A DNA stretch of 64,000 nt, from positions 29,356,868-29,420,867 of the forward strand of contig OY365807.1 in assembly GCA_959347315.1 (NCBI GenBank), read 5' to 3'. Of this stretch, positions 1 through 63,681 are shown piece after piece (positions within the stretch are counted from its first letter, which is position 1; each line of letters begins with the position of its first letter). The DNA is from Bimastos eiseni (Eukaryota > Annelida > Clitellata > Crassiclitellata > Lumbricidae). The translations under genes were made by a program, and so were the position numbers. The notes beneath the pieces were generated by a model, which worked only from the letters and a program-made list of their open reading frames with translations, did no database searches and had not been told where the DNA came from.

Positions 1-450
1 GGCCATTCAATTTCACGCTCCGTTACTCGAATAAGTCCGACTCAGTTGGTACTGAGACAGATGCATCGCCACCAGCTGCAGCAGCCAAAGCGCCTGGCTC
101 AGCAGCAGCAGCAGCTGTGCGATGACAAGGCATCATATAACGGTCAGCGCCCTTCTTTATTCCAACTATAAAAGAGACCGGGCTAGGAAGAAATTTTTCC
201 CAACGTCGTCGCTAGCACCTGATTTATCGGTGACATATCTCGTACACCACTTCCTCTTCATCCGCCAGTGAACTGCAGGAACGAGGGAAAGGGCGATGAA
301 ATGAAGGGATGTACAGAAGACAAATGCACGCATGAGTTGGCAAACGTATGAAGAACGTGCGTACTAACAAGCGTACGAAGACGACAGTTATGCTCGCGAA
401 TGCCTACGACGTACATGTACGCATCGATGAGGCATTATTTAGGCATATAT
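1..450. other. unique left flank, no gene seen
   Basis: There is a short CAG-rich patch near 70-115 and otherwise unique sequence. No open frame with coding character, RNA gene or repeat was recognised. The last four bases (ATAT, 447-450) are the left target-site duplication of the mobile element that follows. Confidence 0.5.
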
Positions 451-3400
451 TGTGGCGTTCTGCCGCCCGAGCGCCTGCCTAGCGCTAACGGACGGTGTCG
501 ACTCCAGCTTGCGAACACGTCTGAAGTCGCCCGAGTCACTTTCTTACCAAATCTCAATGCCAAACGGTTACTCTCTATATCTACCAGGATGTTCACTATC
601 ACCAGGCAAGATTAAGGACGGGTTTCTTCTCCAAGAAAGGTAACACGGCTCGAATTAGTAACGAGGTCTGACTCTGCCTATTCCGCGGTCGCCGGATGGG
701 CAACGTTCTGAGGATGGCCGTACTCAAAACAGGGTTCGTAATCATACCGGCAGGAGTCTTCCTCGCCTTGCATACCTTCCAAGCTACTAGCCTCGTCTTC
801 CTCTACCTGATGTCGTACCGTTCAGCATCTTGTGACTCTGAAACTATCGCCATTTAGGGACACCAAACGTTCTCTTAAGTTACGAGGTTCAGACATATTT
901 GAAACAAGTCCATAAGCCATTTCGGCCTATACAATTATCGGTAGCTAAATCCAACGTCTTATACTCTTAGACATTACTGTCCCAAACTCTCTAACCTCTG
1001 CCGTCCTAGACTCCACAAGTCGCACAGCTCTTAGTCATGTAATCTCCAACACGTATCTATCACGCCTTCTGCTCAACACGTATATTTTGTCATGCACATT
1101 TGACTGACTACGTTCCCGTCCTCTGTGTTAGCAGTTACCCACCAACACTGATATATTCTGCTTCGATAAAAATGACACTGGCATGGTATTCACGGACACT
1201 GATAGCGAAGGTATTCTGTCTATAACCTTCGCTATCTGCACACAGATCTTCGATCCGACCTACGCACGAGGGGGCCCGACCTCGCACTTTAGTCAGCTCT
1301 CAGAACTGTGTGTGACGACAAACAACCATGTATTCACCTGGGTACCCGATTACCCAAACGTACTCGTATCGATCACTTCGATCAGACACGCAAATAGATA
1401 CACTTCGGGAAAATGGGAGGAGTATCTATGACCAACGTAGGTAGCCAACAGTAATATTTACGCATCGATCAATTCTTGGTCTGCTTACTATCTTTACCCT
1501 GGGTTTCCGACTGCCCAGACTTTCACGTCGGTCTCTTGGCCCATTTCCGTGTGTGGCATACCGGCCTCACACGCATAAGTTATCATGCACACGATTGACC
1601 GTCCTCTGCGTTGGCAGTTGTCCGCCAAAACCGTAATATATTCTGATACTCGGGAAACCGGGAGGAGTAACTATGACCAGCGTAGGTAACAAACAAGAGT
1701 ACCTATCGAACGACTATAAAGCCATCAAGAAGAGTTACTTGACTAGTAACCTGAAGGTATCAATCGGCACCAGTGTTTTCTCTTGTTTGTCACGTGCTCT
1801 TCTAACGTGTTCACCCTCCACGTGTAATTCCAGCGGGTCCTTCGGGAATTTCCCCAATATTTCTATCGAACGTATTCAATGGGGAACTTTCCCCGTATGT
1901 GCCAACGCTCCACCGGCAGCTCCCTCGGTTTGTACGGCTGCTACTGCGGGAATCTACTCGGCTTGTATCTCTTGCAGCCACCCGAATTTTCATGTCTCCG
2001 ACAACCTGGGAAAACGGGAGGAGTATCTATGACCGAACTAGGTAGCCAACAAGTATATTTCTCGGCCGGCTTACATCTGTCATATACTTTAATATCCGAT
2101 CACCCAGACTCTCACATGTCTTTAACTCTCATTGACTGCATTTATTCATCCCATCGTAGGAACATATTTGTATTCGTCACCTAGAGATTTGACCAACGGT
2201 AATGCACCAACTCTCGTCTTCTCAGACTCGATTCTCTCACAGCCAACTGAGGTAAGTGTCACCACGTTACCTCTATGTTTCACACAGACCTGTATTATTA
2301 TAATCATTTTCTCTGAAGCAATTGTACTCTGTCTCTTATACACTGGAACGAACCACTGGCAGATCTTTCGAGGAAGTCCTCGAAAAGAGATTATGTAGTT
2401 AGATCTACAAGAAGAAATTAGTAGATGCCTCGCGGGGAAACCGCGAGCCAAGATATTGCAGCTAGACACACAAGTGAATAGATTTCTGGAAAACGAGAGG
2501 AGTAAGTGTGACCGACCTGAGTAGCCAACAAGAAGATTTACCGAAAGATCGCAAGACAATAAAGAAGACATACTGCGGGGACACCGCAAGTACAGATATT
2601 ACGTTTAGTAACTCAAGTAAAGATACGCGGGGAAACCGCGACCTAAGACATTGCGATCAGACACGCAAATCAACAGATTGCTGGTAAACGGGAGGAGTAA
2701 GTATGACCACGCTAGGTAGCCAAGTATAGATATTTACAGAAAACCGTAAATAGAAAAGAATATGCAGAGACGCTCACAATTGATCAGGTTTTCGGCACCA
2801 AAGGGAACTTTCCCTGTATCGAACGCACCAATAGGGTCACCCTCCCCGTATTTATCGAATGTATTCATGTTTTCCAGTATCTGTCGACGGCTTCTCCGGT
2901 AGCTCTCAGTCTGTTTCCAACGGCTTCACGGGGCCGCCCTCCCCGTCTTTTAACCAACGTGTACACTGGGGAATTCTTCCCGTAAATTGTCTCAACAGTC
3001 GCCAGAAATCTGTCTCGATGTAGCGTTCGGTTGCTCGGGGCTTTACCCGATCTCTATTTCTCACGGCCACCGACGGGGTCACGTATCCGACAACCGGCTG
3101 GTAATCTCGAGGAGTAACTATGACCGATCTAGGTAGCCAACCAGAATAGTTCTCGGCCACCAGAACTCCCACGGTCGTGCAGATCGGGGATTTTTCCCAG
3201 TCTATCTCTCGGTCGGCCGCCGAGGCCTCTCTCGATATATGCGTCGGTTCCTTCTGGGACTCAACCAGTATATATCACTCACGGTCACCAACGGGATCAC
3301 CATCTTCCCCGTATTTCCGAACATAACTGTCATTCATTCATTTATTTCTCACGATCGGGTCTTTACGCACTCTCGAACGATACCCAGACCTGTGAGCATT

Positions 3401-3828
3401 TCTCACGATCGGTCTTTCTCTGTCAGCCTGTTGACTCCTACGATCAGGGCACGGTCCGTCTTGCGATCGACGGCAGAGGGGCCCACCCCACCAGATCAGC
3501 GAAAAGCAGCACCAGCCTGACCGCGAGAGCGGCTGTCACTAGAGGTCGTATTTATATGGCAACACTCAACGATCCCTGGAGCGGTACGAGAACCACTCTA
3601 CGTATGAAACAGTACGAACCACTGCTCCACATATATAGCGATGCACCGCATGTCAGGCTATACTCAAGCCAATTCATGCGTCTGCAAGCTATGCACTCAA
3701 TTAAAAACCGCCGATCGGTCTTCCTTCCTATGCGCAACACTGTAAAAAAAATAGACGTAAAATAACACTATGGCGAGCCGATTATTTAAATAAATCATTC
3801 ATTCAAGCCTTGTGGCCTGTCCGCCACA
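451..3828 (+). mobile_element. 3.4-kb TGT..ACA element, copy 1 (solo-LTR-like or non-autonomous transposon)
   Basis: This is the first of two near-identical copies; the other is at 36266-39676. Similarity to copy 2 starts at TGTGGCGTTCTG and stops at CTGTCCGCCACA, so the ends are a 7-bp inverted repeat, TGTGGCG/CGCCACA. The flanks match as a 4-bp duplication: ATAT at 447-450 and ATAT at 3829-3832. No reverse transcriptase, integrase, transposase or long open frame is present. The interior has six spaced copies of a 28S-rRNA-like motif and a series of short GC-rich stem-loops. An AATAAA lies near the right end (about 3790). TG..CA ends with a 4-bp duplication fit a long solo LTR, or a DNA transposon of the Ginger type; I cannot separate these without an internal region. 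The strand is arbitrary. Copy 1 lacks about 60 bp present in copy 2 near 1083. Confidence 0.85.
1415..3142 (+). repeat. six 28S-rRNA-like motifs inside element copy 1
   Basis: Six same-strand occurrences at 1415-1450, 1660-1695, 2016-2051, 2495-2530, 2690-2722 and 3109-3142 share the pattern GAGGAGTAWSTATGACC, six variable bases, then AGGTAGCCAA. Spacing is irregular, about 200-480 bp. From memory, eukaryotic 28S rRNA reads GGTAAACGGCGGGAGTAAC, TATGACTCTC, TTAAGGTAGCCAA at this place; the fifth copy also keeps the upstream GGTAAACGG and the fourth keeps an upstream AAGTGAATAGATT resembling AAGTGAAGAAATT. The match is to domain IV around the R2 insertion site. The remainder of the element does not look like rRNA, so this is not an rDNA copy. 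Confidence 0.75.
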
Positions 3829-6364
3829 ATATTATATATGGTAATGATGCGCAGCTATAGTGGAAAAATATCCCTCAATGACAAGAACATCTATTATCCG
3901 GCGACAATGCACAGTTAGCGTGGTCTGTAATATTTCACAATGCGGGAATATTCGATCAGGACACGTGAATGTATCATTGGCATTCATTGCTATAGCATCT
4001 GCAACTATACTTTACAACGCAGCGACGATAAATTTATCTGCCATACTTGCAAACCTTCTTTCAGCTGATGGGCAAGATGGATCTAAGCAGCCACGACTAC
4101 AGTCTGATGGCTACTTCATCAGGTCCTATTTCATTACGGCCTTATTGGCTTCGTTGATTTAACTTGGCCTTAATTAATCGAGAACAACGTATTAACAAAT
4201 GCTATAGTGTAAAGACGTTTAAGGAAATCGACTGTCTGGTTATTTTACGTTTCGTTTGCATCATATCTATAGATAAATAAGTCCAAAGAGTCGTGCTTCT
4301 TTTTTAGAGATAAAAATAGAGTGCACGAGGGACGTAGAACCTGAGGAAGAATGAGGTGCGACGGGTGGACGAGAAGGGCCCAGGATGGAGAGGGAGGTGG
4401 CAAGGTGCGCTTCTAAAATACATCACGCATTCCTCGTAATAAGTATAGAGTAGAAGTCCTGTCAGACACAGAACGAGAAATGGACCGACTGAGACTGACA
4501 GAGAGACAAAGTCAGACCGACAGATAGACTGACAGAGTGGCAAATGCACCAATATAGCAGCACTATTTCATAGTCGTCGGTTTGAGATGATTTAAGCATG
4601 TGCGTTGTTCGTTATGATTTGCATTTGGTATTAGGGAACTCTGAAGCCGCCCAGACCCACGGATAGTTTCACAGACCAATCCACTGACCAACCGACTGAC
4701 CAAAGTAGGAGGCAGCGGCTGCAGCGGTCGCTGAGCACGTTCGCAGACTTGACAGATGCGGAAAGGGAGGAATGGATAAAGGATGGGATGACGGAAGGAT
4801 AGATAGCCAGAGGACAAAGGAAGGAGAGGAGTGAGGGACGATAGAAGAGTGATTGGGGCAGGTATGGGGAGAGGGGCAAAAGGGCATTCCGTCGGTCGAA
4901 TGAAATTGAGGTTCAGTCGCAGGAGCGTATACTATGGACCGTCGTCCGTAGATGATGAATAGAACTCGAGCGATTTGCGCCACGGTGCTAGGGTCTCGAC
5001 CGCCCGAGAAGACCTCAGAACCTCTCTCCCTCTGTCCACCCCTCCGTCTGTCCGTCCGTCTGTCCACCCCTCCGTCTGTCCGTCCGTCTGTCCACCTCTC
5101 CGTCCGTCCGTCTGTCCACCCCATCGTCAGTCCGTCCGTCCTTACGCAGGTCCATGGTTTCGCTACGGGCATTGCTTCAAGCGAAATGCTTATGCCCATC
5201 CTACATACACCGCTCTGCAACGACAGTTCTATAGAAACCAAGAGCTCCCTCGTGGACACTGCGGCGGATTTCGTGCATATTATTCATTTGCCACTGATTC
5301 TAGGTAGATAATTGATCGGTGACCGAAATCTTCATCGCTGATTGCAAGGACTAACGTAAAATAAACCGAATCGAACACAGATTCATGAAATCGACTGTCG
5401 ACGGATTGCTAGGAAATTGAATGAATGTCGAGATTAATATAGGCCTACCTTCATAGTCGTCTATATAATTATAAGAATATACATTCAATTTGTATTTTGT
5501 ATAAAGCAAGACTATTACAGCTATTACGATGACTAAACAACAAAAACAACAAGACTATAATATATGTTAATCCAAGTAGTGTCTAGTATCATTTAAATGA
5601 TACTAGAAGAATGCACTGCAGATACGGAGTGCACAAAGTACGGCAAACTATCACTTTGTCCCGTTTACTTCAGAGACTCTTGCTCCAATTGACTGTGTCT
5701 GTCTCTCGATTAATATATAAATACATAAATATATATATATATATACAGACAGAATTAAACATATCGTGTAACCAGTGACAAAAGAGCTACCATTCACCAT
5801 AATTGTCGTTGTACTGATATCACTTTGTACAGCCCAAGGCTTTGACGCCATTACAATAGGTGGGACTGCATGAGGGAGGGTGCGTCAGTTTGATGAGAAC
5901 GGGCTCGACCTGTCGAATGGCGAGTCGCTGTTCTACTTTACCAGGAAAATGCCGTCAATCTCAGCCGAACATTATACGAAGTCTGTTGCTCAGCTCATCT
6001 TAGTCATCTATAAAACGCTGTATGACTATGCTTGTTAGTCGACCAAATTGTGGTTACATCGCCTCATTTCTAGACAAAATGAGCCAATAATAGCAATAAA
6101 TAATTGAAAAGCAAATGGCGGAACATGGATAGGCCTATGCAATGCAAGAAAACACGAGTAGAGAGTTGTAATCATTGCGTCGCAAAATATAGTTTCGCGG
6201 CTAATTGTGAATTTGATAAAAATCGGATATCATGGCATTCAATAAGCTATCTGCGACTGTTTTTTCCTCCGGCAATTGCCATGAAAACGGATGCGGAAAC
6301 GATAGATTCAATTGAGGAAACGAATGAACATAAGGAAATACACGACAGATAGCTATCGTATCTT
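3829..6364. other. unique sequence, no gene seen
   Basis: Mostly AT-rich unique sequence. The long open frames on both strands around 4.6-5.3 kb are produced by the pyrimidine-rich tandem repeat at 5032-5145 and carry no recognisable domain. A short (TA)n lies near 5728-5745. Confidence 0.5.
5032..5145 (+). repeat. 28-bp CTGTCCACCC minisatellite
   Basis: About three and a half copies of a unit built from CTGTCCACCCCTCCGT and CTGTCCGTCCGT sub-blocks. It produces spurious open frames on both strands. Confidence 0.85.
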
Positions 6365-36084: not shown

Positions 36085-36265
36085 GGTCAATCTCTCAGGA
36101 ATTTAAAAGGGCCTTGTATAGAAAAAGAGGTCGCTGTCAGAATAAATGGGGCTATACCCATCTACACGACGCCCAGAAGTAGGCTGTCAGTCGGTCTTCT
36201 GTCAGTCGGTCCTCTGAGCTCTAACGCCGTACGTCTTTCAACGCTGAACACATTAAATATCGTGC

Positions 36266-39200
36266 TGTGGCGTTCTGTCGCCCGAGCGCCTGCCTAGCGC
36301 TAACGGACGGTGTCGACTCCAGCTTGCGAACACGTCTGAAGTTGCCCGAGTCACTTTCTTACCAAATCTCAATGCTAATGGTTACTCTCTATATCTACCA
36401 GGATGTTCACTATCACCAGGCAAGATTAGGGACGGGTTTCTTCTCCAAGAAAGGTAACACGGCTCGAATTAGTAACGAGGTCTGACTCTGCCTAGTCCGC
36501 GGTCGCCGGATGGGCAACGTTCTAAGGATGGCCGTACTCAAAACAGGGTTCATAATCATACCGGCAGGAGTCTTCCTCGCCTTGCATACCTTCCAAGCTA
36601 CTAGCCTCGTCTTCCTCTACCCCTACCTGATGTAGTACCGTTCAGCATCTTGTGACTCTGAAACTATCGCCATTTAGGGACACCAAACGTTCTCTTAAGT
36701 TACGAGGTTCAGACATATTTGAAACAAGTCCATAAGCCATTTCGGCCTATACAATTATCGGTAGCTTAATCCAACGTCTTATACTCTTAGACATTACTGT
36801 CCCCAACTCTCTAACCTCTGTCGTCCTAAACACACCAGTCTCACAGCACTTCGTCATATCATGCTAGACACTTAGCTATCACGTCTTCTGCTCAACACGT
36901 ATCTCTCGATCTATTTCCGTGTATGGCATAAACGGCCGCACACGTATATTTTGTCATGCACATTTGACTGACTACGTTCCCGTCCTCTGTGTTAGCAGTT
37001 ACCCACCAACACTGATATATTCTGCTTCGATAAAAATGACACTGGCATGGTATTCACGGACACTGATAGTGAAGGTCTTCTGTCTATAACCTTCGCTATC
37101 TGCACACAGATCTTCGATCCGACCTACGCACGAGGGGGCCCGACCTCGCACTTTAGTCAGCTCTCAGAACTGTGTGTGACGACAAACAACCAAGTATTCA
37201 CCTGGGTACCCGATTACCCAAACGTACTCGTATCGATCACTTCGATCAGACACGCAAATAGATACACTTCGGGAAAATGGGAGGAGTATCTATGACCAAC
37301 GTAGGTAGCCAACAGTAATATTTACGCATCGATCAATTCTTGGTCTGCTTACTATCTTTACCCTGGGTTTCCGACTGCCCAGACTTTCACGTCGGCCTCT
37401 TGGCCCATTTCCGTGTGTGGCATACTGGCCTCACACGCATAAGTTATCAGGCACACGATTGTACCGCCAACACCGTAATATATTCTGATACTCGGGAAAC
37501 CGGGAGGAGTAACTATGACCAACGTAGGTAACAAACAAGAGTATCTATCGAACGACTATAAAGCCATCAAGAAGAGTTACTTGACTAGTAACCTGAAAGT
37601 ATCAATCGGCACCAGTGTTTTCTCTTGTTTGTCACGTGCTCTTCTAACGTGTTCACCCTCCACGTGTAATTCCAGCGGGTCCTTCGGGAATTTCCCCGAT
37701 ATTTCTATCGAGCGTATTCAATGGGGAACTTTCCCCGTATGTGCCAACGCTCCACCGGCAGCTCTCTCGGTTTGTACGGCTGCTACTGCGGGAATCTACT
37801 CGGCGTGTATTTCTTGCGGCCACCCGAATTTTCATGTCTCCGACAACCTGGGAAAAAGGGGAGGAGTATCTATGACCGAACTAGGTAGCCAACAAGTATA
37901 TTTCTCGGCCTGCTTGCATCCGTCATATACTTTAATATCCGATCACCCAGACTCTCACATGTCTTTAACTCTCATCGACTGCATTTATTCATCCCATCGT
38001 AGGAACATATTTGTATTCGGCACCAAGAGATCTGACCAACGGTAATGCACCAACTCTCGTCTTCTCAGACTCGATTCTCTCACAGGCAACTGAGGTAAGT
38101 GTCACCACGTTACCTCTATGTTTCACACAGACCTGTATTATTATAATCACTTTCTCTGAAGCAATTGTACTCTGTCTCTTATACACTGGAACGAACCACT
38201 GGCAGATCTTTCGAGGAAGTCCTCGAAAAGAGATTATGTAGTTAGATCTACAAGAAGAAATTAGTAGACGCCTCGCGGGGAAACCGCGAGCCAAGATATT
38301 GCAGCTAGACACACAAGTGAATAGATTTCTGGAAAACGAGAGGAGTAAGTGTGACCGACCTAAGTAGCCAACAAGAAGATTTACCGAAAGATCGCAAGAC
38401 AATAAAGAAGACATACTGCGGGGACACCGCAAGTACAGATATTACGTTTAGTAACTCAAGTAAAGATACGCGGGGAAACCGCGACCTAAGACATTGCGAT
38501 CAGACACGCAAATCAACAGATTGCTGGTAAACGGGAGGAGTAAGTATGACCACGCTAGGTAGCCAAGCATAGATATTTACAGAAAACCGTAAATAGAAAA
38601 GAATATGCGGAGACGCTCACAATTGATCAGGTTTTCGGCACCAAAGGGAACTTTCCCTGTATCGAACGCACCAATGGGGTCACCCTCCCCGTATTTATCG
38701 AATGTATTCATGTTTTCCAGTATTTGTCAACGGCTTCTCCGGTAGCTCTCAGTCTGTTTCCAACGGCTTCACGGGGCCACCCTCCCCGTCTTTTAACCAA
38801 CGTGTACACTGGGGAATTCTTCCCGTAAATTGTCTCAACAGTCGCCAGAAATCTGTCTCGATGTAGCGTTCGGTTGCTCGGGGCTTTACCCGATCTCTAT
38901 TTCTCACGGCCACCGACGGGGTCACGTATCCGACAACCGGCTGGTATTCTCGAGGAGTAACTATGACCGATCTAGGTAGCCAACCAGAATATTTCTCGGC
39001 CACCTGAACTCTCACGGTCTGCACGGTCGGGGATTTTTCCCAGTCTATCTCTCGGTCGGCCGCCGAGGCCTCTCTCGATATCTGCGTCGGTCCCTTCTGG
39101 GACTCACCCAGTCTGTATCACTCACGGCCACCAACGGGGTCACCATCTTCCCCGTATTTCCGAACAGACCTGTCATTCATTCAATTATTTCTCTCGATCG

Positions 39201-39676
39201 GGTCTTTACGCACTCTCGAACGGTAACCAGACCTGTGAGCATTTCTCACGATCGGTCTTTCTCTGTCAGCCTGTTGACTCCTACGATCAGGGCACGGTCC
39301 GTCTTGCGATCGACGGCAGAGGGGCCCACCCCACCAGATCAGCGAAAAGCAGCACCAGCCTGACCGCGAGAGCGGCTGTCACTAGAGGTCGTATTTATAT
39401 TTATATGGCAACACTCAACGATCCCTGGAGCGGTACGAGAACCACTCTACGTATGAAGCAGTACGAACCACTGCTCCACATATATAGCGATGCACCGCAT
39501 GTCAGGCTATACTCAAGCCAATTCATGCGTCTGCAAGCTATGCACTCAATTAAAAACCGCCGATCGGTCTTCCTTCCTATGCGCAACACTGTAAAAAAAT
39601 AGACGTAAAATAACACTATGGCGAGCCGATTATTTAAATAAATCATTCATTCAAGCCTTGTGGCCTGTCCGCCACA
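36266..39676 (+). mobile_element. 3.4-kb TGT..ACA element, copy 2
   Basis: 3411 bp, near-identical to 451-3828 and in the same orientation. It starts TGTGGCGTTCTG and ends CTGTCCGCCACA. GTGC at 36262-36265 and again at 39677-39680 is a perfect 4-bp duplication, different from copy 1, so this is an independent insertion. It lies in intron 3 of the minus-strand protocadherin. Relative to copy 1 it keeps about 60 extra bases near 36900 and lacks about 18 near 37460. One frame (37515-38045, 176 codons) is open here but interrupted in copy 1; it matches no family I know and starts at one of the 28S-like motifs. The low divergence implies recent activity. Confidence 0.85.
37279..38985 (+). repeat. 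six 28S-rRNA-like motifs inside element copy 2
   Basis: Counterparts of those in copy 1, at 37279-37314, 37502-37537, 37858-37894, 38338-38373, 38533-38566 and 38952-38985. The fourth reads GACCTAAGTAGCCAA here, closer to the rRNA TTAAGGTAGCCAA than the copy-1 version at that base. Confidence 0.75.
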
Positions 39677-39719
39677 GTGCAATAGGCGCCTTCAAGAGGT
39701 TATACAAAACAATACAACT

Positions 39720-53605: not shown

Positions 53606-54527
53606 GGAACAAATCATTGGCAGATTCTTTAACGTTGCAAAGGAGCTGCCTGTCAGAGCCAATCCCAAACATGAGGCAAGCTTTCAAAGGCTCAATATTG
53701 ATGTATGTGATGACATCTTCTTAGCCAATGTACATGTAAATTACTTGCTTGCTTTAGCGTTTGTTTTGACTCTTCTCCTCTTCTACCTTCTCTTATTTTC
53801 ACTATTGCGAGTTTATACAAATAATGTAGCTGCCTATTTCGTATTATATCGCATCTGTGAATTTATAAAGCAGGTATAGGTCTACTAGCCACTCAAAGGC
53901 GCTTTAAGCATGACAGCCTCGTGGAAATAGAAAAAGTCTTATTATTTATGCTCCACATACTGTTGTTTTACGAGTCTTATGACTTTAACAACGGCATTTT
54001 CATCATGCTTATAAATACATTATTCTAAACTTAAAACATTAACACTTTATTATGTATACATATGCTCCGCGGCGTTTATCGCTGTTGCAGTAAACCTCAA
54101 CCTGAACAGATCTGGTAACAGTAACAAAGCTCCATTGGAGTCCCTTGGTATTAATTAGGACCTCAATGACACAGGTTACGTGACCCTCTGGTCCTCTACG
54201 TCGTTAAGTCCATCGTCGTAGTCCATCTGGTGTGATATACTGTCACCATTCATTACAAGGGATTCTTCGAGTCGTCTTTCACCGCTGATATTTCTTCTAA
54301 CCGGCTGTTAATCGTTAACTAGTAGAGCTGTTAACTATTAATTACCAGACAGAGCTATCTGTCGCAAACTATTACCCGAAGGTGGTCAACAGAGGGCCAC
54401 GGGAGAGATCTTCTGATACTCAAAAATACATTAGCCTTTAGCATTGGCCTCGCTTTCCTTATAGACTAAACGACTCCTGCAGAAGCAATGGCTCCTTCAA
54501 CAGACGTTTCTGTCGACCTTCACTTGC

Positions 54528-54560
54528 CTTGTGGTTTAGACGGAGAGGTGGATTAGAACG
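54528..54560 (-). CDS. protocadherin exon 2, fragment beyond the gap
   Basis: Just below the gap, one frame reads RSNPPLRLNHK and then meets CACAAG|GCAAGT, which is the strict consensus of GC-AG intron donors, in phase 0. Phase 0 is what exon 3 needs. If right, these eleven residues are juxtamembrane cytoplasmic sequence. Otherwise the frame would run on to a stop at 54459, giving an unusually short tail. The reading frame cannot be linked to the other side of the gap because gap length is unknown. Confidence 0.45.
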
Positions 54561-54760
54561 NNNNNNNNNNNNNNNNNNNNNNNNNNNNNNNNNNNNNNNN
54601 NNNNNNNNNNNNNNNNNNNNNNNNNNNNNNNNNNNNNNNNNNNNNNNNNNNNNNNNNNNNNNNNNNNNNNNNNNNNNNNNNNNNNNNNNNNNNNNNNNNN
54701 NNNNNNNNNNNNNNNNNNNNNNNNNNNNNNNNNNNNNNNNNNNNNNNNNNNNNNNNNNNN
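54561..54760. other. assembly gap, 200 N, inside protocadherin exon 2
   Basis: Exactly 200 N. The remainder of EC7, the membrane-proximal part and the transmembrane helix are missing and would need about 400 nt or more, so the placeholder probably understates the gap. Confidence 0.95.
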
Positions 54761-56273
54761 TGCGCTCGTTTCCGCTTCGTATCTGGAAAGTGAGGTTGGC
54801 GTTGGCGCCTGCGTCCTGGTCGATGGCCTTCAGCCGAGAGATACGGTAGCCTGAGGGAGTGTCGCTCGACACGCCCACCGTCTCGTTGTTCCAGACAGGA
54901 AACGTGAACATCGGTTTATTGTCGTTGACATCGATCACGTGAACGGTCACGTGCGTCTTCGACGTGTAGCTGTTGGAGATCGCGAGGACATTGAAGCGAT
55001 ACTGCGATTTGCGTTCTCTGTCGAAGACTTCTTTGGAGGTTATGACCCCGTTCTGATGGTCGATATCGAACTGATGCGAGAGGCGACTGTCTGGATCGAT
55101 GGTGAACTGAAAGGAGTTGTACAGCGCTGAGTCTTTGTCGTGGGCCACGACCTGACCCACTTCCGATCCGACCTCGTTGTTCTCAGGCACTTCAAACACG
55201 TATTTGTCTTTGGTAAACGTCGGCCTTTCGTCATCGACGTCCCTTATGACAAGACTCACAAAGGCGCTTGACGATCTAATAGGCTGGCCAGAGTCTCTGG
55301 CAGTCACGTGGAACTGGAGAAAATCGATGACCTCTCGGTCGAAGGATAGCATCGTCCGAACCACGCCGGTGCCTGGTTCAACCAGAAGCATTGAGGTGAC
55401 GTTATCATCTAGGCTGTAGACGATCTCTCCATTGAGGTCAATGTCTCGGTCGGTGGCCGACACTTGAATGATTGACAGGCCAGGATCTCTGTTCTCCTCG
55501 ATCGTCACCTCGTACTTCTGTCTGGCGAACGTCGGTGCATTGTCGTTCTCGTCGAGGACCCTGACCTTGAGCTGAGCGGTCGTCGTCTGCGGTGGCAGAC
55601 CCTGATCGGAGCAGGAGATGGCCATCTGGTAGGAGTGGGTGTCCTCGCGGTCCAGGGGTACCATCGTCACGATCTGGAAATCGGACGACTGAGAACGAGA
55701 CTGCGAGAAGTAATCGTTGTTGATGGAGCACGTGACCTTTCCGTTGTCTCCCTGGTCTCGGTCGGTCACCGAGACGTAGGCAACGAACGTCCCAACCGGA
55801 GAATTCTCCATCACCTCGGCCTGCCCGTCGACGGTCAGTGTCCGTAGACTGATCTGCGGGGCGTTGTCGTTGACGTCGTCCACCCTGACTATGACGGACG
55901 CATGGGCGGGCAGGGAGTCAGGGCCACGATCGTTGGCTATGACAGACAGCAGATGCACGGAGGCCGTCTCGTAGTCGAGTTTGTCCTTGAGGTAGATCTT
56001 TCCCGAATCGCTCTTCATGCCGAACAGGTGTCCGTACTCGTAGCTCGTATGTCGTGAGAACTCATAGAGGATGGCTCCGTTGAGACCGAGGTCCTTGTCC
56101 CTCGCACGCATACGGACGATAACAGTTCCCACGGAGACGTTTTCCAGCAGACGGACTTCGTAGGTGGCGTTGTCGAACTCCGGATTGTTGTCGTTGGCAT
56201 CGAGGACTGTTATGTCGACGAGGGTGGATCCGGATTTGGGAGGATCTCCTCCGTCGACGGCCACAACGATCAC
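54761..56273 (-). CDS. delta-1-like protocadherin, exon 2 (EC2 end to EC7 start)
   Basis: Calcium-dependent cell-adhesion receptor, extracellular part. The acceptor is TATGTGGCAG|GTG in phase 0. The first residues (VIVVAVDGGDPPKSG) complete the EC2 fold begun in exon 1. Linker motifs follow at exon residues 25-31 (DANDNNP, end EC2), 133-139 (DVNDNAP, EC3), 241-247 (DENDNAP, EC4), 345-351 (DVDDERP, EC5, atypical) and 448-454 (DVNDNKP, EC6); EC7 has started (AIDQDAGANANL) when the gap interrupts at residue 504. LDRE- and DRD-type calcium motifs occur in each repeat. Seven repeats is the number in delta-1 protocadherins (PCDH1/7/9/11 type in vertebrates). The M-V-S start predicted by an ORF finder lies in the intron and is not used. 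Confidence 0.95.
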
Positions 56274-57720
56274 CTGCCACATACGGACAAGGACAGATAC
56301 GTAGAGGGACAAGGACAGATACGTAGAGGGACAAATGTACGTGCATTGAATTTGAATATACCATCGTTTAAAATTATATTTAATTGAAATTCTGCGGTTT
56401 TTACACTTATCAGCCTGTCATTGACTCTCTCCTCTTTCTCTCTGAAGAACATTCAACTCAGCTCGTATACATGTATGTAGACTGTTTCTTCAATTCTCAG
56501 AGCCTCCTCTGACGTTCGACCGGATTTTGGGCTGCTTAGCAACGACCATTTACAGCGTCCATGTGCATTATTAGATTATCGCTTTAGAAGTCCAGGATAA
56601 GTAAATGATTGAACTGATTGTTAAAAAAACTGGTGGAAACTTAGCTGATACCGGCAATTTTCATGCAGAATTTTAGGCTTTTATTGGTCCCTCCACTATT
56701 CATCAGAAAGAAATGATTTATTCTCTTTGATTATCAAGACAACAAATTACACATTCGTCTAGAGGGACGTCTTATTATTTTTCTGATAGTTAATGCACAT
56801 CGGTCAAATATCCTTCGAACTCTGGACGACGCCAGGACAGCAGCCTCTTTCGAAGGGCCTGAATATTTAAATTGTCTAGACTTTTCTTTTGCAAAACATG
56901 TCAGGTCGTCGATCACCAGATGGCATTCAACAGATGAACACTACAAATTAAAATCATTGCTATTTGCTGGCTTTGTCGATATCATTTTAAAAGCCAAATA
57001 ATTATTTCTCACACGTAATACATCCATGTCTTATTTGTTCCTAAAACTCGTGTTTCACGCTTTTAGTTAAATCCCGATTTTAGAATCAGCATAATTTCTG
57101 TTTAGCGTAAGACTACATAACGAAGCATAAATGCAATAATAAAATGCTTCATCGTGTGATGAAACAAAGTACACCAGTCAAGAATCATGGTTGCTAATGT
57201 GATGTAACAGTCACAGGTTATCAGAACGAAGAAATCTCATTGACTGGATTCACTCGTTTCGGGTTCATCACGTTCCTCGGGATTTTATGACCTCCATTAA
57301 ATTGTCCATCATAAAGTACATCAACGATTTCGCGAGGTGGGTTTCGTAGAAACAATTTGCACAGCTGACTTTATTGCCAGCCGTAGGCACGGTGAGTTAA
57401 ACAACTCATGACTCGAACTGGATTAATCGATTTGTTCCAGAGCCCGTCAAACGACGCTTCATCATAAGTCTCCGTATTCAGCATCCCACGACTGCAACAA
57501 GTTAGGTTAGGTTAGATGGGTAGCTGGCTGGCTAGCTGTCTGAGGGATCAGTCTTATCGGATGCCACAAATTTGGACGAGACACAATACGAATTTCATTT
57601 GCATCACATTATACCATTATACATGTTTGTATGAATGTGTGTACCGTGGCGCATTTACCGTATGATAGTTATATCAACTTGTGCATTATATATCTTCAAA
57701 GAGTAAACATAATTACAATA

Positions 57721-62665: not shown

Positions 62666-62997
62666 CAAAGCTCCTCTTATGGTGTGTCTTCATTTATATT
62701 ATTATCGTGTTTTGATTCACATTAAGTTAGCATACATTACTAGAATTTAGATCATTAGCTTTTGTCTTTCACCTCATCTTACTCTATTTTATCCTTTCCT
62801 ACCTTACCATACCTTTCTGTACCTTACACCTGACTTGACCACACCTTAACTAGTCATGTGTTACCTTAACCTCACGGACCGCATCACATATCACCATATC
62901 TTATCACGCTGTAATTGAAATTTATTAGTGAGTTAATTAATCTGTTAGTTAATTGTCATGTTAATTAGCCTGCTGATTTGCATATTTATTTGCCTAC

Positions 62998-63681
62998 CTG
63001 ATATCGATCCTCCGTTTCTCGGTCCAGCCTTTCCTTGAGAAGCAGTCGAAGGTCGGTTCCTCCGTCTGCTCTGACGTTGACGACCAGTTCGAACTTGGAT
63101 GACGTGGAGAAAATGTCGTACTTCTGGATGGCGTTGGCTCCACTGTCTCCGTCGACTGCCGCTGGAATGGCGAGGCTCGTATCCATCTCGGCCGACTCAG
63201 AGATCTGGTGATGGATACGCTTCTCCGGATACGTCGGAGCGTTGTCGTTTTCGTCGGTGATCTCTATCTTGACCTTGATGATGTGGAAGAAGGGCTGCGG
63301 TTGGACGACGACGTCAAACTGTGCGACGCAGTCGACCGACCCAGGGCACGCCCTCTCGCGGTCGATGCGCTGCGTCGTCTGGATGACCCCCGTCAGTTCG
63401 TCGATGACGAAGAAGCGCCGATCGAGACTCGGTTGAGTGAGGAGACTGAAGCGCAGAGACGCTAGGTCGTGCTTCTGGTACTTCTGGTCGAGTCCTTCGT
63501 CAGTTATGAGATTGCCGACAAACGTGTTCGGCGGCTGTTCCTCGGGCACTCCGTACTCGAGGAAGTGTTCGGTGCTGCCGAAAACGAGGGCTGAACCGAG
63601 GCAGAGGATCCAATGGCAGACGACGAAGACGACGTAGAGGGACCGAGGACACTCCATAAGAATCGCTGATGAGAATCTCAT
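62998..63681 (-). CDS. delta-1-like protocadherin, exon 1 (signal peptide, EC1, start of EC2)
   Basis: Start ATG at 63681-63679; 228 codons to a phase-0 donor, CAG|GTAGGC. Residues 14-34 (SLYVVFVVCHWILCLGSALVF) form the hydrophobic core of a signal peptide. EC1 follows (YGVPEEQPPNTFVGNL; VIQTTQRIDRERACPG; linker DENDNAP at 143-149). The cysteine pair in the RERACPGSVDC loop followed by a FHIIKVKIEI strand resembles EC1 of vertebrate delta-1 protocadherins. EC2 begins at about residue 150 (HHQISESAEMD; AVDGDSGANAIQKYDI) and is cut at RLDRETEDRYQ, which joins perfectly to VIVVAVDGGDPP of exon 2. Role: homophilic calcium-dependent adhesion at the cell surface. A second in-frame ATG (residue 9) could also serve. 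Confidence 0.95.

Follow-up and report, generated by a model that had tools for sequence, protein, structure and literature searches.

The window, a 64-kb stretch within a genome of 660 Mb and 118 contigs, carries two copies of a 3.4-kb mobile element, W1 and W2 (Table 1). The copies are 96.9% identical over 2761 bases and 94.5% identical over 640 bases (alignment 451-3828 / 36266-39676). Their ends, TGTGGCG...CGCCACA, are of the TG...CA type, and each copy harbors six short units that resemble a stretch of 28S rRNA. Cadherin-domain coding frames, which mark the genome as that of an animal, are found at window positions 54459-56312 (-) and 62986-63681 (-), and the named homologues of the former include annelid and vertebrate proteins.

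Table 1. Features of the two element copies, with positions counted along the whole window.
Feature	Position	Strand	Remarks
Solo LTR copy 1 (W1)	451..3828	-	true 5' end TGTGGCGGACAGG at 3828; true 3' end GCAGAACGCCACA at 451
Solo LTR copy 2 (W2)	36266..39676	-	94.5-96.9% identical to copy 1
Target duplication ATAT, left of copy 1	447..450
Target duplication ATAT, right of copy 1	3829..3832
Target duplication GTGC, left of copy 2	36262..36265
Target duplication GTGC, right of copy 2	39677..39680
TATA box (TATAAATA) of LTR copy 1	3549..3556	-	LTR position 273
28S-like unit 1, copy 1	1419..1448	+ (strand reading like 28S)
28S-like unit 2, copy 1	1664..1693	+
28S-like unit 3, copy 1	2020..2049	+
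28S-like unit 4, copy 1	2499..2528	+	weakest; inside shuffle range
28S-like unit 5, copy 1	2694..2723	+	best; upstream GGTAAACGG matches too
28S-like unit 6, copy 1	3111..3140	+
28S-like unit 1, copy 2	37283..37312	+
28S-like unit 2, copy 2	37506..37535	+
28S-like unit 3, copy 2	37863..37892	+
28S-like unit 4, copy 2	38342..38371	+
28S-like unit 5, copy 2	38537..38566	+
28S-like unit 6, copy 2	38954..38983	+

Identity of the element

A first look across the genome with two pieces of the element gave 1325 and 1188 candidate places, 40 of each being scored. The alignment of 22 copies described here comprises the two window copies and 20 places fetched with their flanks, out of 40 scored places that include both window copies. 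An exact 4-bp target duplication is present in 18 of the 21 copies with both ends, and a 5-bp duplication in none (0/21); L017, in which the right end was not found, is left out of this count. The exceptions are L012 and L025, which match at three of four bases, and L023, which has lost its left end. Among the one-side flanks, 37 of 41 are distinct, and those 37 share no adjoining stretch longer than 60 bases.

The kind of element is indicated by what follows the LTR end elsewhere in the genome. At C1:66378351 (L051), a window-type LTR end is followed by AC and the primer-binding-like 17-mer TGGTACCAGAAGTGGGG, and at C1:2424167 the CGCCACA end of a related LTR is followed by AAT and the same 17-mer. 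This junction pattern, in which the primer site begins 1-4 bases past the LTR end, has 58 matches genome-wide and none in the control. Two unit triplets on C1 lie 10,572 bases apart, suggesting the second LTR of one full-length copy. A 2-kb piece between them, 3.5 kb past the C1:2424167 junction, holds one open frame of 666 codons on the strand of the junction, with the domains RVT_1 (6.9e-35), RT_RNaseH_2 (9.9e-37) and RT_RNaseH (3.5e-34). Gypsy-type RT and RNase H are thus found in a related copy that has both an LTR and a primer site. Many of the polymerase homologues listed carry PF00665 and PF17921; an integrase would lie beyond the 2-kb piece read.

The layout of LTR end and 17-mer is that of an LTR and its primer-binding site. 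With up to three mismatches allowed, the 17-mer is absent from the window and from the 19 copies with a listed flank. Judged by sequence, the window elements are therefore solo LTRs, in true orientation minus, of an abundant group of Gypsy-type LTR retrotransposons, the Gypsy label being drawn from the domains. Solo copies apparently outnumber full-length ones, with 58 junctions set against 1188-1325 unscored candidate places. The preliminary description was right to see a 3.4-kb mobile element and mistook its kind and direction: the true kind is a Gypsy LTR, with the gag-pol strand on the opposite side. The segment was also held to be amplified and not a fragment of rDNA, and this agrees with the Rfam search of the window, which returned no family at gathering score, and with the LSU covariance model, which gave no match up to E 10 in window 1000-3300.

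The 7-bp inverted ends TGTGGCG and the 4-bp duplications would also suit a TIR DNA transposon of Ginger-like type, a reading that was dropped once the primer-site junctions had emerged. Both these junctions and the polymerase contradict it, and the length of the inverted repeats fails as well, with 7 perfect bases here versus ~40-270 bp in Ginger1 and ~50-180 bp in Ginger2, according to the available part of the source (PMC2836005). A transposon of this type is scarcely credible.

Several observations concern individual copies. L022 is a solo copy with an intact 4-bp duplication, and its true 3' flank reads TTTGTACCAGAAGTTTC, sharing near the LTR end a part of the primer-site word, TACCAGAAGT, the presence of which is unexplained. 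L012 carries a 3.25-kb insertion inside the LTR (L012:4416-7667). Its inverted ends are short (AGGCCCGGTCC/GGACCGGCCCT) and it is flanked by up to 10 duplicated bp; by eye, we take it to be hAT-like. On the strand opposite gag-pol, a stop-to-stop frame of 206-214 codons spans window positions 3133-3762 (+) and the same place in W2. It is open in 6 of the 22 copies (W1, W2, L012, L014, L022, L024), the longest frame among 200 shuffles has 206 codons, and the variable sites at its three codon positions number 30/32/47, of 210 each.

Resemblance of the units to 28S rRNA

The exact unit pattern GGAGTAWSTATGACCNNNNTAGGTAGCCAA occurs 1865 times genome-wide (883 + 982), and its reversed-letter control not once; within the window, six units do lie in each 3.4-kb copy at the places first given for them. 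The unit patterns had no match in the viral contig collection or the genome contig collection, nor had the 28S pattern in the viral contig collection. Single units at G000 C1:8312763, 8332912 and 8354094 lie ~20 kb apart on one strand, perhaps within a large tandem duplication.

The assembly has no exact match to a 46-base animal-type 28S pattern. A 42-base pattern with up to three mismatches is found at eight places on two small contigs (G000 C77, which is L068, and G000 C113), all of them reading GGAAGTAACTATGACTTTC. These LSU genes show three differences from the animal type and have, by eye, a 5S-like stretch behind them; they possibly belong to a contaminant or parasite and may not be those of the host. 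Eukaryotic-looking 28S is seen in contigs filed as bacteria (L054, L056, L057, L061, L062, L063, L065, L067), likely as contamination. The word GGAGTAACTATGACTCTCTTAAGGTAGCCAAATGCC is exact at 15 places, which are archaeal LSU genes and eukaryotic-looking 28S in contaminant contigs, the 28S label being given by eye.

Two reference sequences give the same picture. With an animal 28S piece as the reference, scores of the six units are 16.5-26.5 and shuffle maxima 13.5-18.0 (500 shuffles); with the 28S-type gene from the assembly, the scores are 14.5-22.0 and the maxima 14.5-16.0 (1000 shuffles). Unit 4 falls under its own shuffle maximum in both cases (16.5 versus 18.0; 14.5 versus 15.0). The likeness to 28S reported in the preliminary description consequently exceeds shuffled sequence in five of six units, including in alignment to the gene of the assembly, and in these five it is not confined to fewer than ~12 bases; for unit 4 it lies inside the shuffle range. 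Upstream extensions of the match had been proposed for units 5 and 4: that of unit 5 stands, with 0.8% of shuffles as good, and that of unit 4, equaled by 13% of shuffles, does not. The corresponding value for unit 2 is 3%. Downstream of GCCAA there is no convincing similarity, the lowest of 16 shuffle fractions being 4.6%.

BLAST against eight eukaryotic-looking 28S stretches gives 37.9 bits for W1 and 36.3-47.3 bits for the 22 copies. Control DNA from this genome (173,037 bases) peaks at 36.3 bits, the score of L023 and L026; by BLAST score alone, several copies therefore barely rise above background. With the element reversed, no match to 28S falls below E 0.05. Collinear exact words are more telling: a 14-mer paired with a 10-mer sums to 24 in W1, W2 and L013, and the best pairs are 22 in L017 and 19 in the diverged copy L023. 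Among 52 chunks of the same genome, 49 have no such pair, two reach 18 and one reaches 19, the value of L023. A lone 14-mer is unremarkable, since 16 of the 52 chunks have a match of at least 14.

The composition of the units adds to this evidence. A majority sequence built from 11 unit groups agrees with 28S in 36 of its 44 columns, whereas 31 members match at 27-35 (mean 32.5). The invariant columns equal 28S in 16 of 17 cases, with one differing, and 25 of the 27 variable columns include the 28S base among their states. Each unit keeps versions of two flanking 28S words and differs in the middle. As read from the sequences, the variable part is the 3' strand of the H69 hairpin. The highest scores (44-47 bits) belong to units in which an additional base brings back the 31-nt spacing seen in 28S. 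This base is absent from W1, L011, L017, L023 and the related LTR, and the 28S-like register therefore looks derived and is not counted as inheritance.

Repeated binding sites are common in LTRs, and the unit might be a regulatory DNA motif, a repeated protein-binding site with a coincidental likeness to 28S. The BLAST scores close to background, the word pair of L023 and the derived register are all compatible with this reading. Coincidence is harder to reconcile with collinear 14+10 exact words that are unmatched in 52 control chunks, and with a majority unit closer to 28S than any of its members in which nearly every invariant column equals 28S. A motif of this kind is fairly unlikely. The similarity is moderate, confined to ~44 bp and probably not due to chance; these comparisons point to common origin as its most likely source.

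Orientation, transcription and amplification of the units

The units lie on the strand opposite the primer site and at most 3.4 kb upstream of it in all three junctions with listed unit places (C1:2424167, C1:20415033 and C1:66378351, out of 58 junctions in total). All four copies inspected (W1, W2, L014, L023) have TATAAAT on the gag-pol strand at LTR position 272-273, and no TATA-like box precedes unit 1 on the other strand of these four. The W1 units occupy LTR positions 689-2410, all six downstream of the TATA box on the gag-pol strand. RNA initiated from the box would thus carry the complement of 28S in its leader, and the units in the element's own RNA are predicted to be antisense to 28S. 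In L070, TTTTCTTTCCACAG, a splice-acceptor-like stretch by eye, is seen ~27 bases past the primer site, just ahead of the first ATGs; splicing might remove the long leader.

This arrangement allows for a function in element RNA, in which six leader sites complementary to 28S helices 68-71 would pair with free or immature large subunits, either recruiting ribosomes to the very long leader or keeping the RNA at the nucleolus. It would fit the antisense position of all six units behind the TATA box and the occurrence of units in each of the four LTR types that were read, namely W1-type, L017, L023 and the related LTR. When eight antisense units (six from W1, and one each from L018 and the related LTR) are matched with a single 28S stretch, the predicted duplexes range from -48.4 to -64.3 kcal/mol, with shuffle means of -30.5 to -35.1 and a lowest single shuffle of -46.7 kcal/mol, although this strength follows from the 28S similarity itself and is no independent evidence of pairing. 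Against such a function, it is the 28S-sense strand that gives the better fold of the hairpin beside the unit (mean z -1.28, compared with -0.48 for the gag-pol strand; 49 distinct but related, non-independent units, with a mean of -0.24 for 100 control 22-mers), and the units show no slower evolution. A function of this kind is improbable, and the fuller proposal that a Gypsy element built six sites complementary to the subunit-interface helices of 28S into a leader of up to 3 kb, their pairing with (pre-)large subunits being used for translation or nucleolar traffic, is about equally so.

The transcript had also been suggested to form rRNA-like structure; RNAalifold over 36 units finds none. 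On either strand, 150-base windows of the element are slightly more structured than controls, with mean z values of -0.58 and -0.69 compared with -0.10 and -0.11 for 39 control windows.

A further proposal was that the array attracts rDNA-specific elements, R2 among them, as a decoy or landing site. The exact R2 and I-PpoI cut site presumably lies between the two conserved words of the block, and the bases there, where cutting occurs, are the variable part of the units. The sole insertion of more than 1 kb in the 22 copies (L012, element 1357-1366) lies outside any unit, with the proviso that the copies were chosen by an intact unit 1, so that breaks in unit 1 would go unseen. The flanks of the copies have no strong 28S match. 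Although the block is part of the 28S region targeted by R2, the site of which is specific in 28S according to the available text of PMC5035012, no sign of a landing site is seen, and a role as decoy or landing site is most improbable.

Evidence for local duplication comes from copies in which units stand close together. Two unit-1 matches lie ~50-60 bases apart in two copies (C1:4578475 and C2:3165219), and at C1:4578475 two exact units 49 apart were confirmed. In a 1.5-kb piece of the related LTR (L071) there are four units, of which two stand 45 bp from each other. Beside the units lies a 36-bp repeat array (TATTTATCGAACGTATTCAATGGGAAACTTTCCCCG), which was read by eye, TRF giving no output, and is unrelated to 28S. 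Neighboring non-28S repeats in the LTR have multiplied too. The arrangement of the units varies among subfamilies; in L017 and L023, for instance, one additional unit is present, and the stretch read contains nothing that corresponds to unit 6.

The units do not detectably evolve more slowly than their surroundings. In a collinear count, the unit cores diverge by 10.0% in L017 and 9.2% in L023, and their surroundings by 11.8% (shift p 0.40) and 11.4% (p 0.31), a weak test given that 3/6 and 4/6 units, respectively, were aligned; four other copies give p 0.43-0.74. An apparent constraint (cores 4.7% versus 14%, L017/L023) was discarded for its unsound alignment, in which the right end of L017 had been guessed. 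Given the similar divergence, the co-multiplied non-28S repeats, the variable arrangement and the lack of a common fold, passive amplification would be the simplest account of the 28S-like array.

Origin of the array and comparison with known systems

With moderate confidence, we favor an origin in which a block derived from 28S was taken up by a Gypsy LTR, multiplied there by local duplication and then left to decay, with no strong function. Transcription of a full-length element would begin from the TATA box close to the LTR start, and the resulting RNA would open with a leader of up to ~3 kb ahead of the primer-binding site. This leader region would hold, on the opposite strand, the ~45-bp block like 28S rDNA around helices 68-71. 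The block was most likely acquired once from rDNA, ahead of the subfamily split, and copied inside the LTR by the same local duplication that multiplied the non-28S repeats, after which the units would have decayed. Solo LTRs arise from LTR-LTR recombination, which would have produced those in the window. We infer four of these points: descent from rDNA, uptake on one occasion, the transcription start and the lack of a strong function. One counter-point is that uptake in antisense would not be expected from template switching onto rRNA.

The element shares with the Gypsy/Metaviridae type its TG...CA ends, 4-bp duplication, tRNA-type primer site 1-4 bases past the LTR, RT and RNase H, and solo copies. 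It differs in its 3.4-kb LTR, which is unusually long, its many local repeats and its several antisense 28S-like units. SINEs with 28S-derived heads are another case of 28S sequence in a retroelement, however they carry it in sense orientation and in one copy per element. As described in the available part of PMC3849761, Pokey, a piggyBac transposon of Daphnia, likewise bears several rDNA-derived repeats in its non-coding part, 2-5 of them, variable in number and arrangement. Pokey inserts in 28S genes, and its repeats come from the IGS/ITS2 and are close to those of the host (PMC3849761, same portion). Here, the repeats lie in an LTR outside rDNA, are 28S-like and have decayed; Pokey-like insertion at TTAA is seen at 0 of 21 target sites. 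Degenerate 28S-like sequence in a retroelement is also known from R2, seven families of which carry it in the 3' UTR (PMC5035012, available text). R2 is a non-LTR element that targets 28S, and the portion of PMC5035012 at hand mentions no six-fold array. Element type, source region and antisense orientation set the present case apart from both Pokey and R2.

If the block is derived from rDNA, the Gypsy LTRs described here would join Pokey as the second instance of mobile elements that keep several rDNA-derived repeats. To our knowledge it would be the first in an LTR, titles and the openings of abstracts having yielded nothing similar. If the units do pair with 28S rRNA, the 1865 exact units and their differently arranged subfamilies would offer a natural test of mRNA-to-28S complementarity in translation or localisation.
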